From Thermomonospora catenispora (lineage in GTDB: Bacteria > Actinomycetota > Actinomycetes > Streptosporangiales > Streptosporangiaceae), in the NCBI RefSeq assembly GCF_006363815.1, contig NZ_RRYT01000013.1, forward strand, positions 1 to 64,000: DNA of 64,000 nt, read 5' to 3'. Below the pieces are notes generated by a model. That model was given only the letters and a program-made list of their open reading frames with translations, did no database searches and was not told the DNA's origin. The position numbers and the translations under genes are program-made. Position 1 is the stretch's first letter. Each line of letters begins with the position of its first letter. Positions 6,778 through 18,944 of this stretch are shown piece after piece.

Positions 6778-6851
6778 TGGGCAGGGGCGGGGTCGAACCG
6801 CCGACCTTCCGCTTTTCAGGCGGACGCTCGTACCAACTGAGCTACCTGCCC
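6778..6851 (-). tRNA. tRNA-Phe (GAA)
   Basis: The minus-strand sequence folds into a standard cloverleaf. The acceptor is GGGCAGG/CCTGCCC, the D-arm AGCTCAGTTGGTACGAGC, the anticodon loop CTGAAAA (anticodon GAA) and the T-arm GGCGGTTCGACCCCGCC. The discriminator is A and no full CCA is encoded. It lies 19 nt downstream of tRNA-Asp in the same transcript. Confidence 0.95.
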
Positions 6852-6870: not shown

Positions 6871-6945
6871 CGGTCCTGACGGGATTTGAACCCGCGACCT
6901 CCACCTTGACAGGGTGGCGAGCACTCCTAACTGCTCCACAGGACC
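6871..6945 (-). tRNA. tRNA-Asp (GTC)
   Basis: Minus-strand cloverleaf with acceptor GGTCCTG/CAGGACC, anticodon loop CTGTCAA (anticodon GTC), T-arm CGCGGGTTCAAATCCCGTC and discriminator G. It is first in a two-tRNA unit with tRNA-Phe. Confidence 0.95.
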
Positions 6946-10199: not shown

Positions 10200-10284
10200 G
10201 GCGCCTCCTGGGGATCGGTGATGCGTGCCCCATGATGCACCCCGCCTGGGGGACACGTCACATGCAAGATGGCCACAATAACTA

Positions 10285-10313
10285 TTGATTTGGTAGGAAA
10301 AGTGGGGCATCCT
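10285..10313 (+). promoter_or_regulatory. Promoter of the ssu leader/operon
   Basis: TTGATT (10285-10290), a 17-nt spacer, CATCCT (10308-10313), then 6 nt to GTG 10320. This predicts a transcript that starts at or next to the leader start codon. The same geometry occurs at 18902-18930 on the minus strand. Confidence 0.6.
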
Positions 10314-10319
10314 GCCGGA

Positions 10320-10403
10320 GTGCGCAGTACCGAGCCCCGCCGTCTGGTCGCGCGCCTGCACGTCGATCTGCGACGGCAGGCCAGCGCGCTGTGTCCCCGC
10401 TGA
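10320..10403 (+). CDS. Sulfur-operon leader peptide (HVDLRRQASALCP type)
   Basis: A 27-codon mini-ORF from GTG 10320 to TGA 10401-10403, not preceded by an SD. It contains the core HVDLRRQASALCP with a single late Cys codon (TGT). The same core occurs in a second mini-ORF at 18814-18894, and most differences between the two DNA copies over the core are silent, so the peptide is what is conserved. Short actinobacterial leader peptides of this type precede sulfur and cysteine genes. In mycobacteria, Cys-rich leaderless uORFs act as cysteine-responsive attenuators. Here it ends 47 nt before the permease start. Confidence 0.75.
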   Translation: MRSTEPRRLVARLHVDLRRQASALCPR

Positions 10404-10450
10404 CGCCCTCGCAGTCACTGTCGAACGGCCTCAACGGAAGGACCAACCTG

Positions 10451-11272
10451 TTGTCCGCATCCTCGATCGAACTGGCGCGCCCGGTGGGCCGTCGCGGTCG
10501 GATCGCGCTCCGGCCGCCTCGGGACGCCCTGCTGCGCGTCGCCAGCCCCCTGGCCCTGCTGCTGATCTGGCAGCTCGCCGGGAGCACCGGAGTGCTCCCT
10601 GAACGCCTGCTGGCCGCTCCTTCCACCATCGCCGCCACCGCCTACGACCTCTTCCGGGACGGCGTGCTGACCGAGGCGTTGGGCGTCTCGTTGCGCCGGG
10701 CCGCATTCGGGTTCACGCTCGGCGCCCTCGTCGGGATCGGCTTCGCGCTGGTCGCCGGACTCAGCCGGCTCGGCGAGTACGCGGTGGACCCGCCCATGCA
10801 GATGCTGCGGGCGTTGCCGCTGTTCGGCCTGATCCCGCTGTTCATCCTGTGGTTCGGGATCGGCGAGACGCCCAAGATCGCCCTGGTGGCGTTCGGTGTG
10901 GCGTTCCCGCTCTATCTCAACACCTACGCCGGGATCCGCGGCGTGGACGCCAAGCTGGCCGAGCTGGGCCAGGTGCTGCGGCTGTCACGGCCCGCCCTGA
11001 TCCGGCACATCGTGCTGCCCGGCGCGCTGCCGCAGACCCTGGTCGGGCTGCGGCAGAGCCTCGGCGTCGCCTGGCTGGCGCTCATCGTGGCCGAGCAGAT
11101 CAACGCCGACGCCGGGCTCGGCTTCATGATCAACGACGCCCGGGAGTTCCTGCGCACCGACGTGGTGGTGGTCGGCCTGGTGACGTACGCGCTGCTGGGC
11201 CTGCTCACCGATGCGATCGTCCGGCTGCTGGAGAGGAGGGCGCTGGCATGGCGACGCAACTTCCTGAGCTGA
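10451..11272 (+). CDS. ssuC: Aliphatic sulfonate ABC transporter permease
   Basis: Encodes 273 residues from TTG 10451, with GGAAGGA 8 nt upstream; a longer frame from GTG 10391 would overlap the leader peptide. A BPD_transp_1 permease with about six membrane spans and the EAA loop that docks the ATPase (LRLSRPALIRHIVLPGALPQ). It belongs to the SsuC/TauC/nitrate-type family. It overlaps the ATPase gene by 25 nt, and the rest of the operon identifies the substrate class as sulfonates. It imports alkanesulfonates across the cytoplasmic membrane. Confidence 0.85.
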   Translation: MSASSIELARPVGRRGRIALRPPRDALLRVASPLALLLIWQLAGSTGVLPERLLAAPSTIAATAYDLFRDGVLTEALGVSLRRAAFGFTLGALVGIGFALVAGLSRLGEYAVDPPMQMLRALPLFGLIPLFILWFGIGETPKIALVAFGVAFPLYLNTYAGIRGVDAKLAELGQVLRLSRPALIRHIVLPGALPQTLVGLRQSLGVAWLALIVAEQINADAGLGFMINDAREFLRTDVVVVGLVTYALLGLLTDAIVRLLERRALAWRRNFLS

Positions 11273-11964
11273 CGGCGGCGGCGCGGGTGCGCGGACTGGT
11301 CAAGCGGTTCGGCGACCGGACCGTGCTGGACGGCCTGGATCTGGAGATCGGCGCCGGCGAGTTCGTGGCGCTGCTGGGCCGCAGCGGCTCCGGCAAGTCC
11401 ACGCTGCTGCGCGCGCTGGCCGGGCTGGAGCCGATCTCCGGCGGCGAGCTGGAGGTCCCCGGCACCGTGGCGGTCGCCTTCCAAGAGCCCCGGCTGGTGC
11501 CGTGGAAGCGGGTCGGCGCGAACGTGACGCTCGGCCTGGACGTCCCCGACCCCGAGGCCGCGGCCGCCGCCGCGCTCGAAGAGGTCGGGCTGCTGGGGCA
11601 CCGCGACGCCTGGCCGCTCACCCTCTCCGGCGGAGAGGCCCAGCGGGTCTCGCTGGCCCGCGCCCTGGTCCGTCGGCCGTCCCTGCTGCTGCTCGACGAG
11701 CCGTTCAGCGCCCTGGACGCGCTCACCCGCATCAACGTCCACCGGCTGGTGCTGGACCTGTGGGAACGGCACCGTCCCGGGGTCCTGCTGGTCACCCACG
11801 ACGTGGACGAGGCGCTGCTGCTGGCCGACCGGGTCCTGGTGCTGGAGAGCGGACGGATCGCCCACCAGACCGCCGTCGAGCTGGACCGGCCCCGGCAGCG
11901 CGACCACGCCGAGCTGATCCGGCTGCGCTCGGTGCTGCTGGAGCGGTTGGGGGTGGCCCCATGA
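11248..11964 (+). CDS. ssuB: Sulfonate ABC transporter ATP-binding protein
   Basis: 238 residues from ATG 11248 (SD GAGAGGAGGG). Walker A GRSGSGKST, Q-loop FQEPRLVPW, signature LSGGEAQR, Walker B LLLLDEPFSALDA and switch His in LVTHDVDEA are all intact. The FQEPRL...PW form of the Q-loop is typical of SsuB/TauB-type importers. Its start lies inside ssuC, and its stop overlaps the ssuA start (ATGA), so translation is coupled. Confidence 0.9.
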   Translation: MATQLPELTAAARVRGLVKRFGDRTVLDGLDLEIGAGEFVALLGRSGSGKSTLLRALAGLEPISGGELEVPGTVAVAFQEPRLVPWKRVGANVTLGLDVPDPEAAAAAALEEVGLLGHRDAWPLTLSGGEAQRVSLARALVRRPSLLLLDEPFSALDALTRINVHRLVLDLWERHRPGVLLVTHDVDEALLLADRVLVLESGRIAHQTAVELDRPRQRDHAELIRLRSVLLERLGVAP

Positions 11965-12935
11965 GGCGCCTGGCGGCCGCCCTGCTGGCGGCGATGACGT
12001 TGATGGCGAGCGCGGCGTGCGGGGCCGAGGACTCCGGCCCGGCCGACATCTCCCAGGTGACGCTGCGGATCGGCGACCAGAAGGGGTCGAGCGTGCAGTC
12101 GCTGCTGAAGGCGGCCGGGCAGCTCGACGGCACCCCCTACAAGATCAGCTGGTCGCTGTTCACCTCCGGGCCGCCGATCCTGGAGGCGGTCAACGCCGGG
12201 GCCGTGGACTTCGGCGTGGTGGGCAACACCCCGCCGGTCTTCTCCGCCGCCGCCCGCTCCGAGATCGTGATCGTCGGGGCCAGCGAGTCGCGCCTGGAGG
12301 GCCAGGCCATCGTGGTGCCCAAGGACTCGCCGATCAGCAAGCCCGAGGAGCTGCGCGGCAAGCGGATCGCTGTGGCCAAGGGCAGCTCCGCGCACTATCA
12401 CCTGCTGGCCGTGCTGAAGAAGCACGGAATCGACTACAGCGACATCCAACCCCAGTACCTGCAGCCCGCCGACGCCCTCGCCGCCCTGTCCAGCGGCCGG
12501 GTCGACGCCTGGGCCATCTGGGAGCCCTACACCGCCCAGGCCGAGCAGCAGGCCGGGGCCCGGATCCTGGTCGACGGCAACGGCTATGTGAACGGCTACG
12601 GCTTCCAGATCACCTCCCGGTCGGCGTTGGAGAACCGGGCCAAGGTCGAGGCCCTGCGCGACCTGATCGACCGCTACCGCAAGGCGCTGCTGTGGGCCAA
12701 CTCCCACCACAAGGAGTGGGCCCGGCAGTGGGCCGCCGACACCGGCCTGCCCCTCGGGGTGGCCGAGCAGGCCCACAAGCGCCGCTTCGTCACGATCATC
12801 CGGATCGACGACGAGGTGATCGCCGAGGAGCAGCGGGTGGCCGACGCGTTCGCCGAGATCCGGCTGATCCCGGGCCGGTTCGACTTCGCCGACTACTTCG
12901 ACCGGCGCTTCAACGACACGGTTTCGAACTCCTGA
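11961..12935 (+). CDS. ssuA: Sulfonate-binding lipoprotein
   Basis: 324 residues from ATG 11961, overlapping the ssuB stop by 4 nt. A lipoprotein signal peptide runs to MASAACGAED, with Cys near residue 20 as the lipidated residue. The remainder is an NMT1/SsuA-like periplasmic-binding fold: a first strand TLRIGDQKGSS, AVDFGVVGNTPPVF in the hinge region, RGKRIAVAKGSSAHYHL, and GRVDAWAIWEPYTAQAE. It is anchored outside the membrane and presents sulfonates to the permease. Confidence 0.88.
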   Translation: MRRLAAALLAAMTLMASAACGAEDSGPADISQVTLRIGDQKGSSVQSLLKAAGQLDGTPYKISWSLFTSGPPILEAVNAGAVDFGVVGNTPPVFSAAARSEIVIVGASESRLEGQAIVVPKDSPISKPEELRGKRIAVAKGSSAHYHLLAVLKKHGIDYSDIQPQYLQPADALAALSSGRVDAWAIWEPYTAQAEQQAGARILVDGNGYVNGYGFQITSRSALENRAKVEALRDLIDRYRKALLWANSHHKEWARQWAADTGLPLGVAEQAHKRRFVTIIRIDDEVIAEEQRVADAFAEIRLIPGRFDFADYFDRRFNDTVSNS

Positions 12936-12949
12936 AGGGGCCCTGCGAC

Positions 12950-14101
12950 ATGACGCTGACGTTCCACTGGTTCCTGCCGACCCCCGGGGACGGGCGCTCC
13001 CTGGTCGGCGGCGGACACAACATCCCCCGGGGCCTGGCGGTCCCCTCCGGCCGGGAGGGCACCGCCGACCGGTTCCGGGCCCCCGACATCGACTACCTGG
13101 CGCAGATCGCCCGGTCGGCCGAGCAGCTCGGCTTCGACGCCGTGCTCACCCCGACCGGCACCTGGTGCGAGGACGCCTGGCTGACCACCGCCGCGCTGAT
13201 CCGCGAGACCAAGCGGCTGCGCTTTTTGGTGGCGTTCCGGCCCGGACTGCTCTCGCCCACCCTAGCCGCCCAGATGGCCGCCACCTACCAGCGGATCTCC
13301 GGCGGCCGGCTGCTGCTGAACGTCGTCACCGGAGGGGAGAAGGTCGAGCAGGCCCGCTTCGGCGACCACCTCTCGCACGCCGAGCGCTACGCCCGCACCG
13401 ACGAGTTCCTCACCGTCGTGAAGGGCGCCTGGAGCGGCGAGCCGTTCGACTTCACCGGCAAGTACTACCGGGTCGAGGGCGCCACCGTCGCGGGCGGCAT
13501 CGACCCCGTCCCCGAGCTGTACTTCGGCGGCTCCTCCCAGCCCGCCGGGCCGGTCGCCGCCAAGCACGTCGACGTCTACCTCACCTGGGGCGAGCCGCCC
13601 GCCCAGGTCGCCGAGAAGATCGAGTGGATGCGCAAGCTGGCCGCCGAGCAGGGCCGCACCCTGCGCTTCGGCATCCGGCTGCACACCCTCAGCCGCGACA
13701 CCTCCGAGGAGGCCTGGCGCGAGGCCGACCGGATGCTGGCGGCGTTGGACCCGGCCGTCATCGACCAGGCCCAGAAGAACCTGGCCGCCAGCGACTCGGT
13801 GGGCCAGAAGCGGATGCGCGCCCTCCACGAGAAGTTCCGCAGCACCGGCGACCCGCGCACCCTCGAGGTCTCCCCCAACCTGTGGGCGGGCGTGGGCCTG
13901 GTCCGCGGCGGCGCCGGCACCGCCCTGGTCGGCAGCCACACGGAGGTCGCCGACCGCATCGAGGAGTACGCCGAGCTGGGCATCACCGAGTTCATCATGT
14001 CCGGCTACCCCCATCTGGAGGAGGCCTACTGGTTCGGTGAGGGCGTGCTGTCCGAGCTCCGCCGCCGGGGCTCGCTCAAGGCCCTGAAGGCCACCGCCTG
14101 A
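12950..14101 (+). CDS. ssuD: FMNH2-dependent alkanesulfonate monooxygenase
   Basis: 383 residues, close to E. coli SsuD (381). Alignable landmarks are FHWFLPTPGDGR at the N-terminus, TPTGTWCEDAW with the conserved active-site-region Cys, RFLVAFRPGLLSPT, LYFGGSS, VDVYLTWGEPP, FGIRLH, SPNLWAGVGLVRGGAGTALV and SGYPHLEEAYWFGEG. A luciferase-like (beta/alpha)8 barrel that cleaves alkanesulfonates to aldehyde and sulfite. It needs reduced FMN, and the reductases are encoded in the second sulfur operon at 16804-17813. The start is ATG 12950, 14 nt after ssuA. Confidence 0.92.
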   Translation: MTLTFHWFLPTPGDGRSLVGGGHNIPRGLAVPSGREGTADRFRAPDIDYLAQIARSAEQLGFDAVLTPTGTWCEDAWLTTAALIRETKRLRFLVAFRPGLLSPTLAAQMAATYQRISGGRLLLNVVTGGEKVEQARFGDHLSHAERYARTDEFLTVVKGAWSGEPFDFTGKYYRVEGATVAGGIDPVPELYFGGSSQPAGPVAAKHVDVYLTWGEPPAQVAEKIEWMRKLAAEQGRTLRFGIRLHTLSRDTSEEAWREADRMLAALDPAVIDQAQKNLAASDSVGQKRMRALHEKFRSTGDPRTLEVSPNLWAGVGLVRGGAGTALVGSHTEVADRIEEYAELGITEFIMSGYPHLEEAYWFGEGVLSELRRRGSLKALKATA

Positions 14102-14136
14102 CCGGCCGCCGAGGCGCCCCGCGGACGATGGGACGC

Positions 14137-14182
14137 GGGCCGGGCGGATCCTCCTTGCGGGCTCCTCAGGGCCGCCCGGCCC
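14137..14182 (+). terminator. Terminator hairpin after ssuD
   Basis: GGGCCGGGCGG (14137-14147) pairs with CCGCCCGGCCC (14172-14182): an 11-bp perfect stem with a 24-nt loop, 36 nt past the ssuD stop. The rest of the 304-nt gap to 14405 shows no gene. Confidence 0.55.
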
Positions 14183-14405
14183 GATGACCGAGCGCCGCCC
14201 CCGACGAGCGGGGCGGCGCTCGCCGCCGTTCCGGACCGCCCGCGGCGGCGCGACCGGGCCGGGGAGGGGGACGTCACGGCCTCCACGCCCGTCGCGCGAG
14301 TCCGTGTGAGCGGGGACGGGTGCGGCGGACCGGGGAAGCCGGTCTCTCCTCGGCCGGGGCGGCGATTCCCCACGGCCCGGCAGGGCGACCCTCGGCCCGG
14401 TCTTT

Positions 14406-14600
14406 TCACCGCGAGTCTTTGAGGGCGCGGACGAACGCCGTCCACTGGGAGCGATGCAGGGTGAGCGCGGGGCCGTCGGGGTTCTTGCTGTCGCGGACGG
14501 CCACCACGGCGCCGAGGTCCGCGACCTCGACGCAGTTGTTGCCTCCACCGCTGTAGGTGCTCTTGCGCCAGGTCGCGTACGCAGGGTCCGGCCTGTTCAT
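14406..14600 (-). CDS. DUF397 domain protein
   Basis: 64 residues. ATG 14600 overlaps the stop of the upstream regulator gene by 4 nt, so the two are translationally coupled. Contains the DUF397 signature WRKSTYSGGGNNCVEVAD ... VAVRDSKNPDGPALTL. DUF397 proteins are small actinobacterial partners of XRE/DUF5753 regulators, acting in development and antibiotic control in Streptomyces (for example around WhiJ/BldB). The specific output here is unknown. Confidence 0.92.
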   Translation of the reverse strand: MNRPDPAYATWRKSTYSGGGNNCVEVADLGAVVAVRDSKNPDGPALTLHRSQWTAFVRALKDSR

Positions 14601-15466
14601 CGCCTCAGCTCCTTCAGCTCGGAACGGATCAGGTCCGCGGACTCGTCGGGCGGCAGCGCCATATCCGCAATGTGATCCCAAGCCAGGCTATATCTGGCGA
14701 CCCCTTCGACACTCTCCACGTAGACGTCGCCCATCAGCCCTTCGGTGTACGCGACATCGGGGTCGGACGACTCGGAGAACTGCATGATCACGAAGGAGCC
14801 CTCCATGGCGGCGTGCAATCCCGCATCGAACGGGAGGACCCGAACCGTGACATGTGGGCGTTCGCTTGCGGTGAGCAGGGCCTGGAGCTGTGCGGAAGCG
14901 ATGCCGGGCCCGCAGGCCGCACAGCGACGGAGCACCGCTTCGTTCAGGATGCAAAGGAGCTCCGGCGGGTGCTCGCGGTCGAGTATGGCCTGGCGCGCAA
15001 GGCGTGCCGTCACCCGGCGCTCCACCTCCTGGGCGGTGGCCGTCGGCCGTAGGGCGTGGATGACGGCACGGGCATAGCTCTTCTCTTGGAGCAGGCCGGG
15101 GATCAGCTCGGCCTCATAGGTGCGGATCCTGGCGGCCTCGCTTTCCAGACCGACGTAGCTGCCGGTGAAAACGTCCTGGTACTCGGTCCACCAGCCGCGC
15201 TGACGAGAGTCGCGGGCGAGCTGGATCAGGGCGTCTCTGTCAGGGCTGGGAACACCGTACAGATCGCACAGGTCTCGGATGTCGCGCCAGGATGCGGACG
15301 TTCGGCCGTGCTCTAGGCGGTAGACCTTCGAGACCGACCACTCCATCTGGTCGGCCACTGCTTCGCGTGACAGCCCTGACCGTGCGCGCAGTTCACGGAG
15401 TGCGGCGGCCAGCCTGCGACGCCGCACCGTGGGAGAGGTCCCTTGGCCTCTGAGCTGGTTCGTCAT
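14597..15466 (-). CDS. XRE-family regulator with DUF5753 domain
   Basis: 289 residues from ATG 15466, with GAAGGGCGG upstream. An N-terminal helix-turn-helix (residues ~15-70: LAAALRELRARSGLSREAVA, then MEWSVSKVYRLEHGRTS) is followed by the DUF5753 ligand/partner domain (RQRGWWTEYQDVF ... ARIRTYEAELIPGLLQ ... VTVRVLPFDAGLHAAMEGSF). With the coupled DUF397 gene this is a standard actinobacterial regulator pair. It is divergent from the RsbW-like ATPase gene, and all three may form one signalling module. Confidence 0.93.
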   Translation of the reverse strand: MTNQLRGQGTSPTVRRRRLAAALRELRARSGLSREAVADQMEWSVSKVYRLEHGRTSASWRDIRDLCDLYGVPSPDRDALIQLARDSRQRGWWTEYQDVFTGSYVGLESEAARIRTYEAELIPGLLQEKSYARAVIHALRPTATAQEVERRVTARLARQAILDREHPPELLCILNEAVLRRCAACGPGIASAQLQALLTASERPHVTVRVLPFDAGLHAAMEGSFVIMQFSESSDPDVAYTEGLMGDVYVESVEGVARYSLAWDHIADMALPPDESADLIRSELKELRR

Positions 15467-15626
15467 GATTGCCGCCCTTCTCGGCATGGCTTGGCCGATA
15501 CATATATGCACCAGTTCACCGTGACCTGTTGCACATTGCCGTGAGTCACGACATGATACCGAGCGTCATCGTGACACAGTGCACGCTGCCAAGGTGCATG
15601 TTCGCTGGAGGAGAGACGGAGGGGCT

Positions 15627-16241
15627 ATGGCTGATGTCCCGGATGAGCACCGGGGGCGTCACGGGGACGAGCCTGTGCGTTCAACCGGTGACGGCACGGC
15701 GGCGCCGAGGGACATGATCGGGACCGTCCCGAACGGGTCATGGGCGGTGCAGGTGCTGCTGTGCGCCACCTTCCCGGCGGCGGAGGAACAGGTGCGCCGT
15801 GCACGGCGGACGGTGCGGCAGGTGTTGGCGGCTTGTCCGGAGTTCGACTCGGGGGACGCCGAGCTGCTGGTCAGCGAGCTGGCGGGCAACGCCGTCCGGC
15901 ACAGCGGATCGCGGATGTTCGGGCTGGAGCTGGCGCGGACGTGGAACGGCGCGTTGCGCATCGCCCTCGCCGACGACGGACGGGGCGTCACCACCCCTCA
16001 TCTGCGGGTCGGCGGGCTGTCCGACACGGGCGGACGAGGGCTGCGGCTGGTCGAGGAGCTGGCGAGCCGGTGGGGGATGGTCCGCGCGCGGGGCGGCGGT
16101 CAGGCGGTCTGGTGCGAGCTGGACCGTGCTCCTCGTCCACACGCCGCCGCCGACCTCCCCTTCTCGGGGCTGCGCCCGTATGGTCATGCCGTCCCCGCTC
16201 CCGGCCCGTCCTGGGGCAGGGCCGCAGCGGGCCGGTGGTGA
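15627..16241 (+). CDS. RsbW/SpoIIAB-like ATP-binding protein
   Basis: 204 residues from ATG 15627 with GGAGGGG 6 nt upstream. A HATPase_c_2 domain spans ~45-165: N-box LLVSELAGNAVRHSGS, G1 DDGRGV and G2 GGRGLRLVEELASRWG. The flanks are disordered. This family includes anti-sigma-factor Ser kinases and Streptomyces regulatory ATPases commonly found beside DUF397/XRE pairs, as here. No sigma factor gene is adjacent, so whether it acts as an anti-sigma kinase is open. Confidence 0.85.
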   Translation: MADVPDEHRGRHGDEPVRSTGDGTAAPRDMIGTVPNGSWAVQVLLCATFPAAEEQVRRARRTVRQVLAACPEFDSGDAELLVSELAGNAVRHSGSRMFGLELARTWNGALRIALADDGRGVTTPHLRVGGLSDTGGRGLRLVEELASRWGMVRARGGGQAVWCELDRAPRPHAAADLPFSGLRPYGHAVPAPGPSWGRAAAGRW

Positions 16242-16244
16242 GCG

Positions 16245-16547
16245 GTGGCGGCCGAAGGACCGGGTGAGCCGGAACGCGCAGGAGCAACCCCACATGCGAT
16301 CCGCCTGACCGCCCGGGAGCGCGAGGCGGTCGCCCTGGCCACCGAGGTCCGCGGGCTGCTGTGCACCTGGATGGCGCGCCGCGGCCTGGCGGCGCCCCTG
16401 GGCGTCTCTCCCTATGTGGACCGCGCCGGTCGTCCCTGCGTCCTCATCCGCATGGACGCGCGGCTCGCCCTGGCCGTGTTGCGCACCCTTCCCGACGGGC
16501 GGCCGCCGCCCCGCCGTCCCAACGGCACCTTCCGGCACGGCCCGTGA
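16245..16547 (+). CDS. Hypothetical protein, 100 aa
   Basis: GTG 16245 lies 3 nt after the ATPase stop, so it is probably co-transcribed and coupled. It has a helical core (LTAREREAVALATEVRGLLC) and then APLGVSPYVDRAGRPCVLIR, a small alpha/beta element with two Cys. The C-terminus is Pro/Arg-rich. No SD is obvious. Similar small partners follow RsbW-like genes in actinobacteria, but I cannot name the family. Confidence 0.5.
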   Translation: MAAEGPGEPERAGATPHAIRLTAREREAVALATEVRGLLCTWMARRGLAAPLGVSPYVDRAGRPCVLIRMDARLALAVLRTLPDGRPPPRRPNGTFRHGP

Positions 16548-16725
16548 ACCGTCCGTCCGGCGGAGGAGGCGCCGTGGTCTCGTCCGCTCCACGGACGTTC
16601 CGGCGGGCGGGGGCGTGCCGTCGATCACCGTCCCGAGGTCCGCGGACCGTCTCATCGGCGCCCCGGCGGGCACGACGTCGTCGGCCGTTCGCGGTGTGTT
16701 CGCCGGAGGGGACGCGCCCGCATGC

Positions 16726-16766
16726 GCTTCGGCCCGGTCCCGCGCACCCTGGGACCGGGCCGAAGC
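16726..16766. terminator. Strong 16-bp terminator between convergent units
   Basis: GCTTCGGCCCGGTCCC (16726-16741) pairs perfectly with its complement at 16751-16766 around a 9-nt loop. TTTT follows at 16767-16770 for plus-strand transcripts. It can also serve the minus-strand sulfur operon that ends at 16804. Confidence 0.8.
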
Positions 16767-16803
16767 TTTTCGGCACCGCGGCGTCCACCCCCGCCGCGGT
16801 GGT

Positions 16804-17313
16804 CTAGGGGTACGGGATGAAGCGGCCGAAGCGGCCGTGGTGGTACAGCAGCGGGGCGCCGCCGTGGCCGTTCCGGGTGCCCACCACCAGGCCGACGACC
16901 AGATGGTGGTCGCCGATCGTGGCGGTGGTGTAGGGGACGGCCAGCAGATGGGCGACGACGTCCTCCAGGAGGGGGACCCCGAGGGGTCCGGGTCGCCAGG
17001 CGGTGGGGGCGGCGAACCGGTCGATGCCCTTCTGGGCGAAGCGGGCCGCCACGTCGGGCTGGTGGGCGGCCAGCAGGTTGACCGCGAAGACCTCCGCCTG
17101 GGACAGGTCGGGCCAGGTGGTGGAGGACGCGGCGACGTAGAAGGAGATCAGCGGCGGGTCCAGGCTCACCGAGGAGAACGAGGTGGCGGTGAGGCCGACC
17201 GGGGTGCCCTCGGCGTTGCGGGCGGTGACCACCACGACCCCCGAGGCGTGCAGGGCCAGGGTGCGGCGGAACCGGCGGGCGTCGACCGGCTGATGGGTCA
17301 GGGTCCTGGTCAC
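16804..17313 (-). CDS. Flavin reductase (DIM6/NTAB family)
   Basis: 169 residues from GTG 17313, overlapping the ssuE stop by 4 nt. Shows the flavin-reductase split-barrel pattern: FRRTLALHASGVVVVTARN, PVGLTATSFSSVSLDPPLISF, FAVNLLAAHQ, and a C-terminal HHLVVGLVVGTRNGHGGAPLLYHHGRF. Family members reduce FMN or FAD with NAD(P)H to feed two-component monooxygenases. The context suggests it supplies SsuD or a related desulfurising enzyme. It is the last gene of the minus-strand sulfur operon. Confidence 0.85.
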   Translation of the reverse strand: MTRTLTHQPVDARRFRRTLALHASGVVVVTARNAEGTPVGLTATSFSSVSLDPPLISFYVAASSTTWPDLSQAEVFAVNLLAAHQPDVAARFAQKGIDRFAAPTAWRPGPLGVPLLEDVVAHLLAVPYTTATIGDHHLVVGLVVGTRNGHGGAPLLYHHGRFGRFIPYP

Positions 17314-17813
17314 GGCGACGCCTCCGGCCGGGGGATCGGGGGCCGCCAGCCGTCGAGGACCTCGCGCAGGGCGGGCAACTGCGACTCCACCACGGCCAGG
17401 CCCGGGGTCGGGACGTGGGCCCCCAGCTCCACCAGCAGGGGCCGCAGATGCACCTCCACCGCGAGGGCGTGCTTGGGGTCGCCCATCACCAGGATCGGCA
17501 GCGCCACCGTTCCGCGCAGCGCGCCGCCGGGCAGCAGGTCCAGGAACGACTTGAGCAGCCCGGTGTAGGTCCCCTTGTAGGTGGGGCTCGCCACCACCAG
17601 CACCTCGGCCTCGGCGGTGGTCTTCAACGCGGCGTCCAGCTCGCCGGCGGGTTCGGGGGAGTAGAGCTGCGCGGCCAGTCCGGACAGGTCGATGACCTGG
17701 TCGGGGCCCTCCCGGCCGATCCGCTCGGCCAGCGTGCGGGCGGCCTCGACGGCCACATGGCGGGTGCGGGAGGCGGGGCGGGGGTTGCCCACCACGGTGA
17801 CGACGCCGCTCAT
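17310..17813 (-). CDS. ssuE: NADPH-dependent FMN reductase, SsuE-like
   Basis: 167 residues with a flavodoxin-like fold. The phosphate-binding loop is VVGNPRPASRT, LVVASPTYKGTYTGLLKSFLDLLP is the FMN-site segment typical of SsuE/MsuE, and VALPILVMGDPKHALAVEVH follows. It supplies FMNH2 to SsuD, whose gene is in the operon at 10.3-14.1 kb. It starts at ATG 17813, 85 nt after the rhodanese gene, and overlaps the flavin reductase gene downstream. Confidence 0.85.
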   Translation of the reverse strand: MSGVVTVVGNPRPASRTRHVAVEAARTLAERIGREGPDQVIDLSGLAAQLYSPEPAGELDAALKTTAEAEVLVVASPTYKGTYTGLLKSFLDLLPGGALRGTVALPILVMGDPKHALAVEVHLRPLLVELGAHVPTPGLAVVESQLPALREVLDGWRPPIPRPEASP

Positions 17814-17898
17814 CGGCGCCTCCTCGCCTCGTGCGACGGACGTCCGGGAAGCGGCGTGGGGCAGCGGGTCATGGGGGGTCTCCTTGCAACGGGAACGG

Positions 17899-18327
17899 TC
17901 ACAGGCAGGTGGGGTCGGGCTCGGCGGGCCAGGGCGCGCCGGTGGTGGGCAGGCCGACGGCGCGCCAGGCCCGGTAGCCGCCGATGACGTCGGTGGCGCG
18001 GCTCAGGCCCAGGTCCTGGAGGGAGGCCGCGGCCAGGCTGGAGGTGTAGCCCTCCGCGCAGATCACGATGACCCGCGCTCCGTAGCCGGTGGCCTCGGGG
18101 AGCCGGGACGGGCTGGCCGGGTCGAACCGCCACTCCAGGACGTTCCGTTCGACGATCAGGGAGCCGGGGATCTCGCCCTCGGCGGCCCGCTGCGCCTGTG
18201 GGCGGATGTCCACCAGCACCGCTTCGCCCTCGACGAACTCCCGGTACGCCTCGCCCGGGGTCAGCCGGACGAGGCGGCGGCGGGCCTCGGCCAGCATCCG
18301 GTCGATCGAACGGGGCGCGTTCACCAT
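17899..18327 (-). CDS. Rhodanese-like sulfurtransferase
   Basis: 142 residues, a single rhodanese domain. Seen: the strand AVLVDIRPQAQRAAEGEIPGS, and the active-site loop VIVICAEGYTSSLAAASLQDLG with catalytic Cys in CAEGYT, followed by the typical GGYRAW. ATG 18327 overlaps the end of the cupin gene by 7 nt. Rhodaneses move sulfane sulfur to cyanide or other acceptors. Next to a cysteine-dioxygenase-like gene it likely handles sulfur from thiols, as persulfide-type rhodanese/dioxygenase pairs do. Confidence 0.88.
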   Translation of the reverse strand: MVNAPRSIDRMLAEARRRLVRLTPGEAYREFVEGEAVLVDIRPQAQRAAEGEIPGSLIVERNVLEWRFDPASPSRLPEATGYGARVIVICAEGYTSSLAAASLQDLGLSRATDVIGGYRAWRAVGLPTTGAPWPAEPDPTCL

Positions 18328-18767
18328 TGGTCCGCCCGTTCCGTCGCCAGCCGGATCAGCTCGCCGTCCGGGGTGAGGTCGTAGCGGTTCATCGAGCTCA
18401 GCGGCGGGGAGTAGACGTGCACGCTGACGGCGGGGGCGGCGGTGGTGTTGGTGACCGAGTGGATGTGGTCGGGTCCGAACTCGCGCAGCCCGCCCGCCGT
18501 GAGCACTCGGCGTCCGTGCAGGTCCTGCTCCTCCAGCGCGCCGAGCGCGACGGCGAACGCGCCGCGTGAGCCGCCGTGGTCGTGCAGCCCGGTCGACTGG
18601 CCCGGCATCCAGCTGAGCAGCCAGACCTCGTGCCGGGCGTCGTGGTGCAGCCGCTCGTACCAGCGTTCGGGGACGCTGAGCCGGACCCGGTCGATCCAGC
18701 GCGCCGGGTCGGCGGCGAGCGACCGGGCGATCTCGGCCACGGCCGGGAGGGAAGTGCTGACGGTCAT
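18321..18767 (-). CDS. Cysteine dioxygenase-like cupin
   Basis: 148 residues from ATG 18767 (SD GCGAGGACGAG); an in-frame upstream extension would run through the leader peptide. A CDO type I cupin: the metal-binding His-x-His in TGLHDHGGSRGAF, the third His in GPDHIHSV, and the segment RHEVWLLSWMPGQ before the first metal motif. The family oxidises cysteine, or another small thiol, to the sulfinate using Fe(II) and O2. It is the first full gene after the leader peptide. Confidence 0.85.
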   Translation of the reverse strand: MTVSTSLPAVAEIARSLAADPARWIDRVRLSVPERWYERLHHDARHEVWLLSWMPGQSTGLHDHGGSRGAFAVALGALEEQDLHGRRVLTAGGLREFGPDHIHSVTNTTAAPAVSVHVYSPPLSSMNRYDLTPDGELIRLATERADQW

Positions 18768-18813
18768 GCCTCGTCCTCGCGGTGTCGGTCCGGAAAGAAG
18801 GGTCGCTTTCACC

Positions 18814-18894
18814 TCACGGGACCGGACACAGCGCGCTGGCCTGGCGGCGCAGGTCGACATGCCGGCGCCGCCACTGCAGGACGTCGGGACGCAT
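18814..18894 (-). CDS. Second sulfur-operon leader peptide
   Basis: 26 codons from ATG 18894 to the TGA at 18816-18814. It carries RRHVDLRRQASALCP, matching 13 consecutive residues of the leader at 10320-10403, with one Cys codon near the end. No SD precedes it, and the predicted promoter places the transcript start at the ATG. It ends 46 nt before the cupin start, almost the same distance as the 47 nt between the other leader and ssuC. Confidence 0.75.
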   Translation of the reverse strand: MRPDVLQWRRRHVDLRRQASALCPVP

Positions 18895-18901
18895 GGTCTC
18901 G

Positions 18902-18930
18902 ACGATCCCAGAAATTCACCACTAAGTCAA
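18902..18930 (-). promoter_or_regulatory. Promoter of the second sulfur operon
   Basis: On the minus strand: TTGACT (18930-18925), a 17-nt spacer, GATCGT (18907-18902), then 7 nt to ATG 18894. The flanking bases CTATTGA are shared with the promoter at 10285. Confidence 0.6.
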
Positions 18931-18944
18931 TAGGAAATAGCGGG

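Follow-up and report, generated by a model that had tools for sequence, protein, structure and literature searches.

Two mini-ORFs in the window, a 64,000-nucleotide stretch of the Thermomonospora catenispora genome, are on balance probably leaderless, nascent-chain-assisted cysteine attenuators, each resting on a single UGU codon and each serving the operon behind it. Leader peptide 1, VRSTEPRRLVARLHVDLRRQASALCPR, has a GTG start and occupies positions 10320-10403 of the forward strand, while leader peptide 2, MRPDVLQWRRRHVDLRRQASALCPVP, has an ATG start and runs from 18894 to 18814 on the reverse strand. An earlier note on this DNA had placed both ORFs correctly, together with their distances to the next gene: 47 nt from the stop of copy 1 to the TTG start of ssuC (10451) and 46 nt from the stop of copy 2 to the ATG start of a cupin gene (18767). 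The near-equality of these distances is real but has little meaning, because the leader-to-gene distance is 48, 47 and 52 nt in the ssu orthologues and 39, -4 and 7 nt in the cupin orthologues.

The two peptides share an identical core of 13 residues, HVDLRRQASALCP. As a count, the note's description of the core DNAs as diverging chiefly by silent changes is correct (there are five, which fall at His, at Asp, at two Arg and at the last Pro, and no replacement), but it hides the fact that the 3′ half, coding for QASALC, is letter-for-letter identical in the two copies.

The downstream genes are as the note had described them, with uptake and an SsuD-like protein on one side and an SsuE-like protein, flavin reductase, cupin dioxygenase and rhodanese on the other. 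Behind leader 1, on the forward strand, lie an SsuC-like ABC permease with a TTG start (10451-11272; PF00528), an SsuB-like ABC ATPase starting at ATG 11248 (11248-11964; PF00005, best NCBIfam match an aliphatic sulfonate ATPase; scanned as the longer frame 10849-11964), a substrate-binding protein of the SsuA family starting at ATG 11961 (11961-12935; TIGR01728, above cut-off; scanned as the longer frame 11502-12935) and an SsuD-like, alkanesulfonate monooxygenase-like LLM protein starting at ATG 12950 (12950-14101; PF00296, with NF001939 and TIGR03565 as best matches; scanned as the longer frame 12017-14101). Behind leader 2, on the reverse strand, are a cupin of the cysteine-dioxygenase type I (CDO_I) family (18321-18767; PF05995), a rhodanese-domain protein (17899-18327; PF00581), an SsuE-like NADPH-dependent FMN reductase (17310-17813; PF03358, best NCBIfam match TIGR03567) and a flavin reductase-like protein (16804-17313; PF01613). 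The names SsuB, SsuC, SsuD and SsuE denote best NCBIfam matches, all of them below cut-off.

Family membership and distribution

This kind of leader is already catalogued as NCBIfam NF042934, 'putative leader peptide' (cis_reg_atten), with a curated cut-off of 27 bits. Copies 1 and 2 score 30.5 and 34.5 bits against it, and 28.9 and 33 bits in a genome-wide profile search that found six places over the cut-off in the whole genome; since the twins are two of these six, they are not a chance resemblance. Both have the same core ending in Cys and, in our own wording of the type, each is a short ORF just upstream of a sulfur/cysteine gene. The comparison with NF042934 is one of name and scores, which are silent on mechanism, on the TGT rule set out below and on a leaderless start. 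This supports the idea that the twins belong to an actinobacterial kind of leader peptide already known from sulfur operons, but they are nothing special as a pair: the genome holds six such leaders and the family heads varied genes, among them the sulfur-type ones for nitrite/sulfite reductase, DUF4395 with rhodanese, TauD, a PALP enzyme and an NMT1-type binding protein. Some leaders even precede genes with no obvious link to cysteine, such as 2-oxoacid:ferredoxin oxidoreductase and an SDF symporter. The convergent pair itself is kept in four of the five genus genomes searched (G001, G002, G004 and the window's own); in G003 there was none among the matches listed.

Codon 17 and the peptide core

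For the class comparison 234 leaders were fetched (one, L164, is probably not a member), of which 83 have one Cys codon between core start and stop and 94 have two. The proposed sensor codon, identified from the sequence and from this comparison, is TGT at core position 17, the last Cys codon of the core (10392-10394 on the forward strand in leader 1, 18826-18828 on the reverse strand in leader 2). Among the 231 leaders with Cys at this position, which span 119 genome labels and 28 family labels and include 110 from the window's own family, TGT is used 229 times and TGC twice (L237 and L163); outside these 231, the codon at position 17 is TAT in L112 and TGA in L144. The remaining Cys codons between the core start and the stop are TGT in 31 cases and TGC in 204 (n = 235), core Cys10 is TGT in 9 and TGC in 103 (Fisher p 5e-74), and the longest open frames downstream, some of which may be wrong, contain 60 TGT and 435 TGC. 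Other two-fold core codons ending in C or T have the T ending in 103 of 476 cases, and T endings are therefore not general. Thus conservation of the peptide and not of the DNA, as claimed earlier, does not hold at codon 17, where the aligned leaders indicate that the nucleotide is conserved beyond what the peptide alone asks. The sole Cys of the leader is TGT at position 17 in 81 of the 83 single-Cys leaders, and evolution suggests that one Cys codon may suffice. A tRNA scan of the organism's own genome gave 60 places, all of which were scanned, and two tRNA-Cys genes, both GCA; with only tRNA-Cys(GCA) found, UGU would be read by wobble.

Equal synonymous and non-synonymous divergence, which the note had named as a refutation of its reading, was not observed: core pN/pS was 0.057 and 0.062 in the orthologue sets of the twins (four sequences each), against 1.01 and 0.70 for the five codons just upstream, so that the core is, by this measure, under purifying selection; a value of about 0.06 is also what selection on an arrest peptide would lead one to expect. 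In 60 random leaders from all classes core pN/pS was only 0.51, with 1.06 upstream.

Proposed mechanism

Both mini-ORFs look leaderless, with a -10-like hexamer ending 6-7 nt before the start codon. Reading from the sequence, leader 1 has a -35-like TTGATT (10285-10290, forward strand), a hexamer that recurs in L052, L051 and L042, and after a 17-nt spacer a -10-like CATCCT (10308-10313) 6 nt before the GTG; leader 2 has a -35-like TTGACT (18925-18930, reverse strand) and, 17 nt past it, a -10-like GATCGT (18902-18907) 7 nt before the ATG. A generic sigma-70 scan gave no site for the leader 1 promoter, nor did a generic promoter scan for leader 2. The 234 fetched leaders appear to follow the same leaderless trend: TANNNT ends 5-8 nt upstream of 131 of 558 in-frame ATG/GTG codons versus 65 of 6558 other in-frame codons, and of 208 chosen leader starts 91% have C or T at base -1.

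We hypothesize that RNA polymerase starts at or beside the start codon, as these statistics suggest, and that the ribosome begins the leader at once. It would make the conserved chain L..R[RL]HVDLxRxxSAL and then reach the one UGU codon, which usually lies 1-4 codons ahead of the stop. UGU should be a slow codon, the first to stall as Cys-tRNA falls, because the tRNA genes found read it only via G-U wobble with tRNA-Cys(GCA); the choice of codon is observed, its slowness we infer. The invariant Arg, Asp and Arg would by then be in the exit tunnel, where, to judge from the selection on the peptide, they probably lengthen the pause. A ribosome parked at UGU would change what becomes of the RNA downstream, thereby switching the operon on; by analogy with mycobacterial poly-cysteine leaders this would happen when cysteine is short, and sulfonate sulfur would then be taken up. 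The last step is the weakest, and could be either the unmasking of a Shine-Dalgarno sequence, as predicted for copy 1, or the shielding of a C-rich, G-poor spacer from Rho-type termination, which we weigh about equal.

Spacer RNA and alternative explanations

The 47-nt spacer of copy 1 (10404-10450, forward strand) contains the Shine-Dalgarno sequence GGAAGGA at 10436-10442, predicted to pair with the leader segment UGUCCCC, while in the 46-nt spacer of copy 2 (18768-18813, reverse strand) the Shine-Dalgarno sequence GAGGACGAGG is predicted to be paired, hardly with the TGT segment. No intrinsic terminator was found between leader and gene at either copy, and T-runs follow 14 of 234 leaders, against 7 of 234 for a control stretch. 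Spacer composition was C 0.43 and G 0.28 (97 leaders), versus 0.37 and 0.32 in the regions preceding 34 other genes (p 4e-7). The C-rich, G-poor untranslated stretch of a Rho attenuator is present in this set of 97 leaders, composition alone being no proof of Rho action.

Plain translational attenuation, the mechanism reported for mycobacterial poly-cysteine leaders, would have the stalled ribosome open an RNA structure hiding the ribosome-binding site, with the rest of the peptide passive; we consider it possible, if doubtful. The leaderless layout would fit it, the twins match NF042936 (Ms4527A type) weakly (19.3 and 17.3 bits, under the cut-off of 45), and the family includes leaders with poly-Cys tracts (L013, L131 and L133). 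The predicted folds offer it support in copy 1, where the expected number of Shine-Dalgarno bases paired to the TGT segment is 4.8 of 7 (pairing probability of the third U of UGU 0.93), and in orthologue L052 (3.8 bases; third U 0.64), but besides copy 1 a single one of its three ssu orthologues shows predicted masking, which is absent from the other two of the four ssu leaders and from all four cupin leaders. The class-wide signal for masking in these models is weak. The duplex of leader segment -24..+12 with its own Shine-Dalgarno sequence, the best of eight segments tested, had -11.84 versus -11.23 kcal/mol in 2000 permutations over 101 of the 234 leaders (p 0.0045), which nudged our estimate of plain attenuation upward, yet the segment at TGT itself (-6..+12) gave no signal (p 0.70). 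Shine-Dalgarno-to-leader pairing was not consistently higher in native than in swapped folds (84 folded, p 0.88), and folds of the whole leader did not exceed shuffles in strength (z -0.75 and -0.58). Pairing of the TGT segment with downstream RNA was at the level of shuffled sequences (120 of 234 leaders, p 0.90), and complements of UGU and its neighbours were not enriched before the gene starts of 101 leaders. Nor would a passive peptide be expected to show the low pN/pS of the twin cores.

An arrest peptide could alternatively use its nascent chain to detect a small molecule, be it cysteine, some sulfonate product or a different sulfur metabolite, the Cys codon being no sensor of charged tRNA. 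R4, D8 and R11 are invariant in 234 of 234 leaders in spite of many synonymous spellings, an invariance that is partly built in, as members were found by peptide score, and the confinement of purifying selection to the core and not the upstream codons also agrees with such sensing. It leaves the third-base T of codon 17 unexplained, TGC coding for the same amino acid, and we judge it unlikely.

We give still less credence to the T of TGT being part of an RNA signal, whether a pairing partner or a protein site, unrelated to decoding. The third T is retained where the codon is TAT (L112), it has a predicted Shine-Dalgarno partner in copy 1, and 86% of 123 leaders have C as the base following TGT, irrespective of the amino acid. 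However, the predicted partner of the T varies (summed over 120 leaders, about 50 expected pairs are with A and about 22 with G, with about 60% paired), and its Shine-Dalgarno pairing was 0.034 versus 0.033 in swapped folds (84 leaders), which lowered our estimate slightly. The 60 nt after TGT in 123 leaders have no strongly conserved base outside the leader, and Rfam gave no match, the spacer of copy 1 included.

A candidate operator overlaps the -35 of both promoters. At leader 1 it is CTATTGATTTGGTAGGAA (10282-10299, forward strand), half-palindrome-like in the manner of TTTCCTA...TAGGAAA, and at leader 2 it is the near-consensus TTTCCTATTGACTTAGTGGTGAA (18915-18937, reverse strand). A 15-base form has zero mismatches at both twins; no genome position other than that of TTTCCTATTGACTTAGTGGTGAA comes within three mismatches of the typed 23-base consensus, and the copy 1 element exceeds that limit. 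Elements like it were also seen by eye in several sulfonate-type leaders. That a repressor on this element does the regulating, the leader having no sensory role (feeding ribosomes or being tolerated), is very improbable: the shared element and the coupling-like spacing in two cupin orthologues (leader stop to next start 7 and -4 nt) speak for it, but the strict element occurs in 6 of 239 loci and the 23-base form at that one genome place, whereas conservation of the peptide and of TGT extends to all classes.

Wider reading and comparison with known systems

A bolder extension of the single-UGU attenuator, which we offer as a long shot, would be an actinomycete class-wide sulfur sensor resting on the spelling of one codon, with a wobble-read UGU, at a fixed place in an arrest-type peptide that also reports tRNA thiolation, as the active part. 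Since tRNA-Cys reads a UNN codon, it should bear at A37 the modification ms2i6A, which contains sulfur and which MiaA and MiaB make; the genome has genes of both families. The thiol group of ms2i6A might be needed for UGU to be read by wobble, in which case the leader would report Cys-tRNA charging and tRNA thiolation together, and thus the general sulfur state, which would explain leaders heading non-cysteine iron-sulfur enzymes. The published leader mechanism rests on a poly-cysteine tract; with a near-invariant TGT, a codon sensor and a peptide sensor can be told apart by a single silent base change. If the reading is true, a silent UGU to UGC change would break the sensor, sulfur uptake, sulfite reduction and sulfur transfer of many actinomycetes would be controlled via one synonymous codon, and synonymous choice would here be a regulatory signal.

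TnaC-type arrest peptides acting with Rho have a conserved nascent chain, a stall near the stop and no intrinsic terminator. The window leaders are similar in their conserved chain, in their proposed stall near the stop and in lacking an intrinsic terminator, but they have no known ligand and their stall would be at a sense codon. Poly-cysteine leaderless short ORFs of mycobacteria were reportedly described by Canestrari et al. 2020; in leaders of this type an RNA structure is reported to mask the downstream ribosome-binding site, whereas in the window such masking is predicted for copy 1 and not for copy 2. These mycobacterial leaders have a Cys tract and each window copy has one Cys codon; a likeness exists in L013, L131 and L133, where a Cys tract is attached to the core LTKRRAVDLCR[VI]AG.

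Shell et al. 2015 (PMC4633059) likewise treat mycobacterial leaderless short ORFs upstream of sulfur/cysteine genes, with Cys codons near their end. For uORFC-8-2, upstream of cysS in Rhodobacterales, the relevant passages of PMC8632094 describe Cys codons thought to sense Cys-tRNA, with UGC dominant and an intrinsic terminator; here, in contrast, UGU is near-invariant and no terminator was found. The actinobacterial candidate Cys leader ORFs of Seliverstov et al. 2005 (PMC1262725), as presented in its sections on these leaders, lack terminators, with Rho-dependent termination proposed, and have runs of cysteine codons where each window copy has one Cys. Few of the leaders fetched here carry a poly-cysteine tract.

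Two members of a known leader family

The mini-ORFs at 10320-10403 (+) and 18894-18814 (-), copies 1 and 2, were reproduced with their coordinates, translations, common core and distances of 47 and 46 nt to the next gene, and the gene content that an earlier note had claimed behind both was borne out by domain and family matches. Copy 1 is followed by an ABC permease, an ATPase, an SsuA-family binding protein and an alkanesulfonate-monooxygenase-like protein, and copy 2 by a CDO_I cupin, a rhodanese, an FMN reductase and a flavin reductase. A Pfam search of both peptides gave no match. Both exceed the cut-off of NCBIfam NF042934 (30.5 bits for copy 1, 34.5 bits for copy 2; cut-off 27), titled 'cis_reg_atten, putative leader peptide'. 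Thus, as the earlier note had supposed of their general type, the kind already has a name, and the twins are members of a known leader family.

The near-equality of the two spacers is real, but it does not reflect a shared design, since orthologous leaders lie 48, 47 and 52 nt from the next gene in the ssu operons and 39, -4 and 7 nt in the cupin operons. Two cupin-type orthologues, L051 and L045 (minus strand), have a longer leader whose stop overlaps or adjoins the start of the following gene (-4 and 7 nt), suggesting translational coupling in place of a spacer. An HTH/DUF5753 regulator gene lies between the two operons (14597-15511, -).

A profile search of the window's genome found six places over the NF042934 cut-off, the twins included. 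The other four precede a 2-oxoacid:ferredoxin oxidoreductase alpha-type frame (L001), DUF4395 followed by a rhodanese protein (L003), an acyl-CoA-dehydrogenase-like protein (L005) and a nitrite/sulfite reductase (L006); the alpha-type genes behind L001 and another family leader, L033, are not cysteine genes. At the E-values used, and with the own genome counted, 58 of 60 genomes had profile matches; the class sample gave 110 of 148, and the phylum sample 15 of 198, namely 14 of the class (own genome counted) and one outsider below the cut-off. None of the 14 named control genomes matched in the 60-, 148- or 198-genome searches; at a loose E-value of 10, 10 of the 14 also matched, none over the cut-off. 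Among named genomes, the core occurs in 9 stretches, which belong to species of Thermomonospora, Actinomadura, Amycolatopsis and Actinosynnema. The convergent leader pair is retained in three relatives of the same genus, G001, G002 and G004 (9.6, 7.3 and 7.7 kb apart); for a fourth, G003, the matches listed do not include it.

A nearly fixed TGT codon at core position 17

Core position 17, the last Cys codon, is Cys in 231 of 234 leaders, 229 times as TGT and twice as TGC, across 119 genome and 28 family labels that were assigned by hand, may count the same genome twice and include one family label of our own. The window's own family contributes 110 of the 231, all 110 with TGT. TGC accounts for 204 of the 235 other Cys codons in the same leaders, for 103 of 112 at core position 10 and for 435 of 495 in the longest open frames downstream. 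The fetched regions were drawn from the matches listed, mostly best scores first, and further matches exist. Choosing by peptide score cannot make a codon bias. From this set we removed three matches scoring below 14 (L007, which was also left out of an earlier comparison of leaders, the second L131 match and L032) as well as exact duplicates, for example L053, whose leader DNA is identical to that of L042 and L045. The 234 still include L164, a leader from beyond the class that is probably not a family member.

The view that the peptide rather than the DNA is conserved is consequently wrong at this one codon. Among six Cys-rich leaders examined, L013, L131, L133, L162 and L172 have TGT at position 17, and L163 has TGC there and TGT at position 15. 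The three rows without Cys at position 17 are a TAT, a TGA and the doubtful L164; as natural exceptions, L112 (TAT, the third T kept) and the second L144 leader (TGA, a stop for Cys) are useful test cases. The rule renders testable the earlier question of whether a single Cys codon is enough.

Ser14 is encoded by AGC in 84% of cases against a background of 22%. We dropped this as an RNA signal because shared descent accounts for it: no single silent step leads from AGC to TCN, and ACC, GGC and GCC are each one step off. Descent cannot excuse TGT, since TGT to TGC is a single silent transition. Programmed frameshifting was rejected, since the codon preceding TGT varies, as was an alternative GTG start overlapping CTGTGT in frame with ssuC, which is absent in leaders with CTCTGT or ATCTGT.

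Each of the 60 tRNA places identified in the genome was scanned, and both tRNA-Cys genes have the anticodon GCA, so that UGU is read by wobble. They lie in two Gly-Cys-Val clusters about 13 kb apart on contig 22 of the window's genome (L243, 1501-1746; L244, 1501-1755) and measure 76 and 72 nt, with GCA common to both. The window itself has tRNA-Phe and tRNA-Asp genes at 6778-6851 and 6871-6945 (-).

Selection on the peptide

Synonymous and non-synonymous divergence, which the earlier note had proposed to compare, are indeed unequal. Pairwise comparison of the ssu leaders from four genomes yields 3 replacement and 23 silent differences in the core (pN/pS 0.057), against 29.5 and 12.5 in the five codons upstream (1.01); the cupin leaders have 3 and 18 in the core (0.062) against 20 and 14 upstream (0.70). 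Sixty random leaders of all classes gave 0.51 for the core versus 1.06 for the upstream codons; the codon table behind this work has 233 rows, two same-strand L144 leaders sharing one key. R4, D8 and R11 are invariant in 234 of 234 leaders while their synonymous codons vary widely, an invariance partly built in because members were picked by peptide score.

The single-UGU, peptide-constrained form is a variant, and its codon rule is new as far as the literature was searched: no report of a fixed UGU in these leaders was found, including in passages of PMC4633059, PMC9094748, PMC13236596, PMC8079986 and PMC11133741. The nearest contrast is uORFC-8-2, for which the consulted part of PMC8632094 describes UGC as dominant, unlike the UGU of the present leaders.

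RNA structure and the output step

The last Cys codon is separated from the stop by 1-4 sense codons in 192 of 234 leaders. No terminator was found in the leader set or at either twin, Rfam gave no match, and whole-leader folds of the twins were no better than those of shuffled sequence. A 110-nt sub-fold of copy 1 had a z of -1.66, with 12 of 200 shuffles folding equally well. UGUCCCC of copy 1 is predicted to pair with the Shine-Dalgarno GGAAGGA (third U of UGU, probability 0.93), and among eight orthologous leaders folded such masking was predicted in two, copy 1 and partially L052, and in neither the other two ssu leaders nor any of the four cupin leaders, copy 2 included.

Class-wide, there was no signal in the pairing of the TGT segment (120 of 234 leaders, four shuffles each), in a first duplex permutation (101 of 234 leaders with a usable start; few permutations), or in the complement search and swapped folds. 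A fuller duplex permutation over eight segments gave p values of 0.0045 for one long segment, 0.03 for -18..0, 0.01 for +6..+24 and 0.07 to 0.87 for the remaining five. We take the RNA-structure signal for a weak one that is not conserved. Compared with regions upstream of 34 other genes, the spacer is rich in C and poor in G, a composition that would suit Rho, though other causes are possible; in the part consulted, Seliverstov et al. 2005 (PMC1262725) already proposed Rho for terminator-less cysteine leaders. Given the mixed masking results and the Rho-compatible spacer, the output step is left between Shine-Dalgarno unmasking and Rho, with neither favoured.

Promoter region and predicted leaderless layout

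Upstream of the twins we found TTGATT/TTGACT, a 17-nt spacer and CATCCT/GATCGT, then 6/7 nt to the start codon, and, as judged by eye, sulfonate-type relatives have a similar layout. A generic sigma-70 scan called no promoter at copy 1 or copy 2. Over the 234 leaders (own genome counted), TANNNT ends 5-8 nt upstream of 131 of 558 in-frame ATG/GTG codons, whereas the remaining in-frame codons give 65 of 6558. A start with this spacing occurs in 133 of 234 leaders, and relaxing the motif to NANNNT raises the number to 206 of 234. Of 208 starts picked for a good -10, 91% are preceded by C or T, a figure without a control; the -10 in their logo is circular by selection, but the preceding base is not, and C/T is expected there where transcription begins on the purine. 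The arrangement of these motifs predicts a leaderless layout for the twins. The S. lividans reannotation, in the part consulted, lists eight named leader peptides, of which several are leaderless and none is assigned to cysteine. A TTTCCTA...TAGGAAA-like element over the -35 of both twins (10282-10299, +; 18937-18915, -), also found ahead of sulfonate-type leaders in relatives, is a candidate operator of some sulfur regulator.
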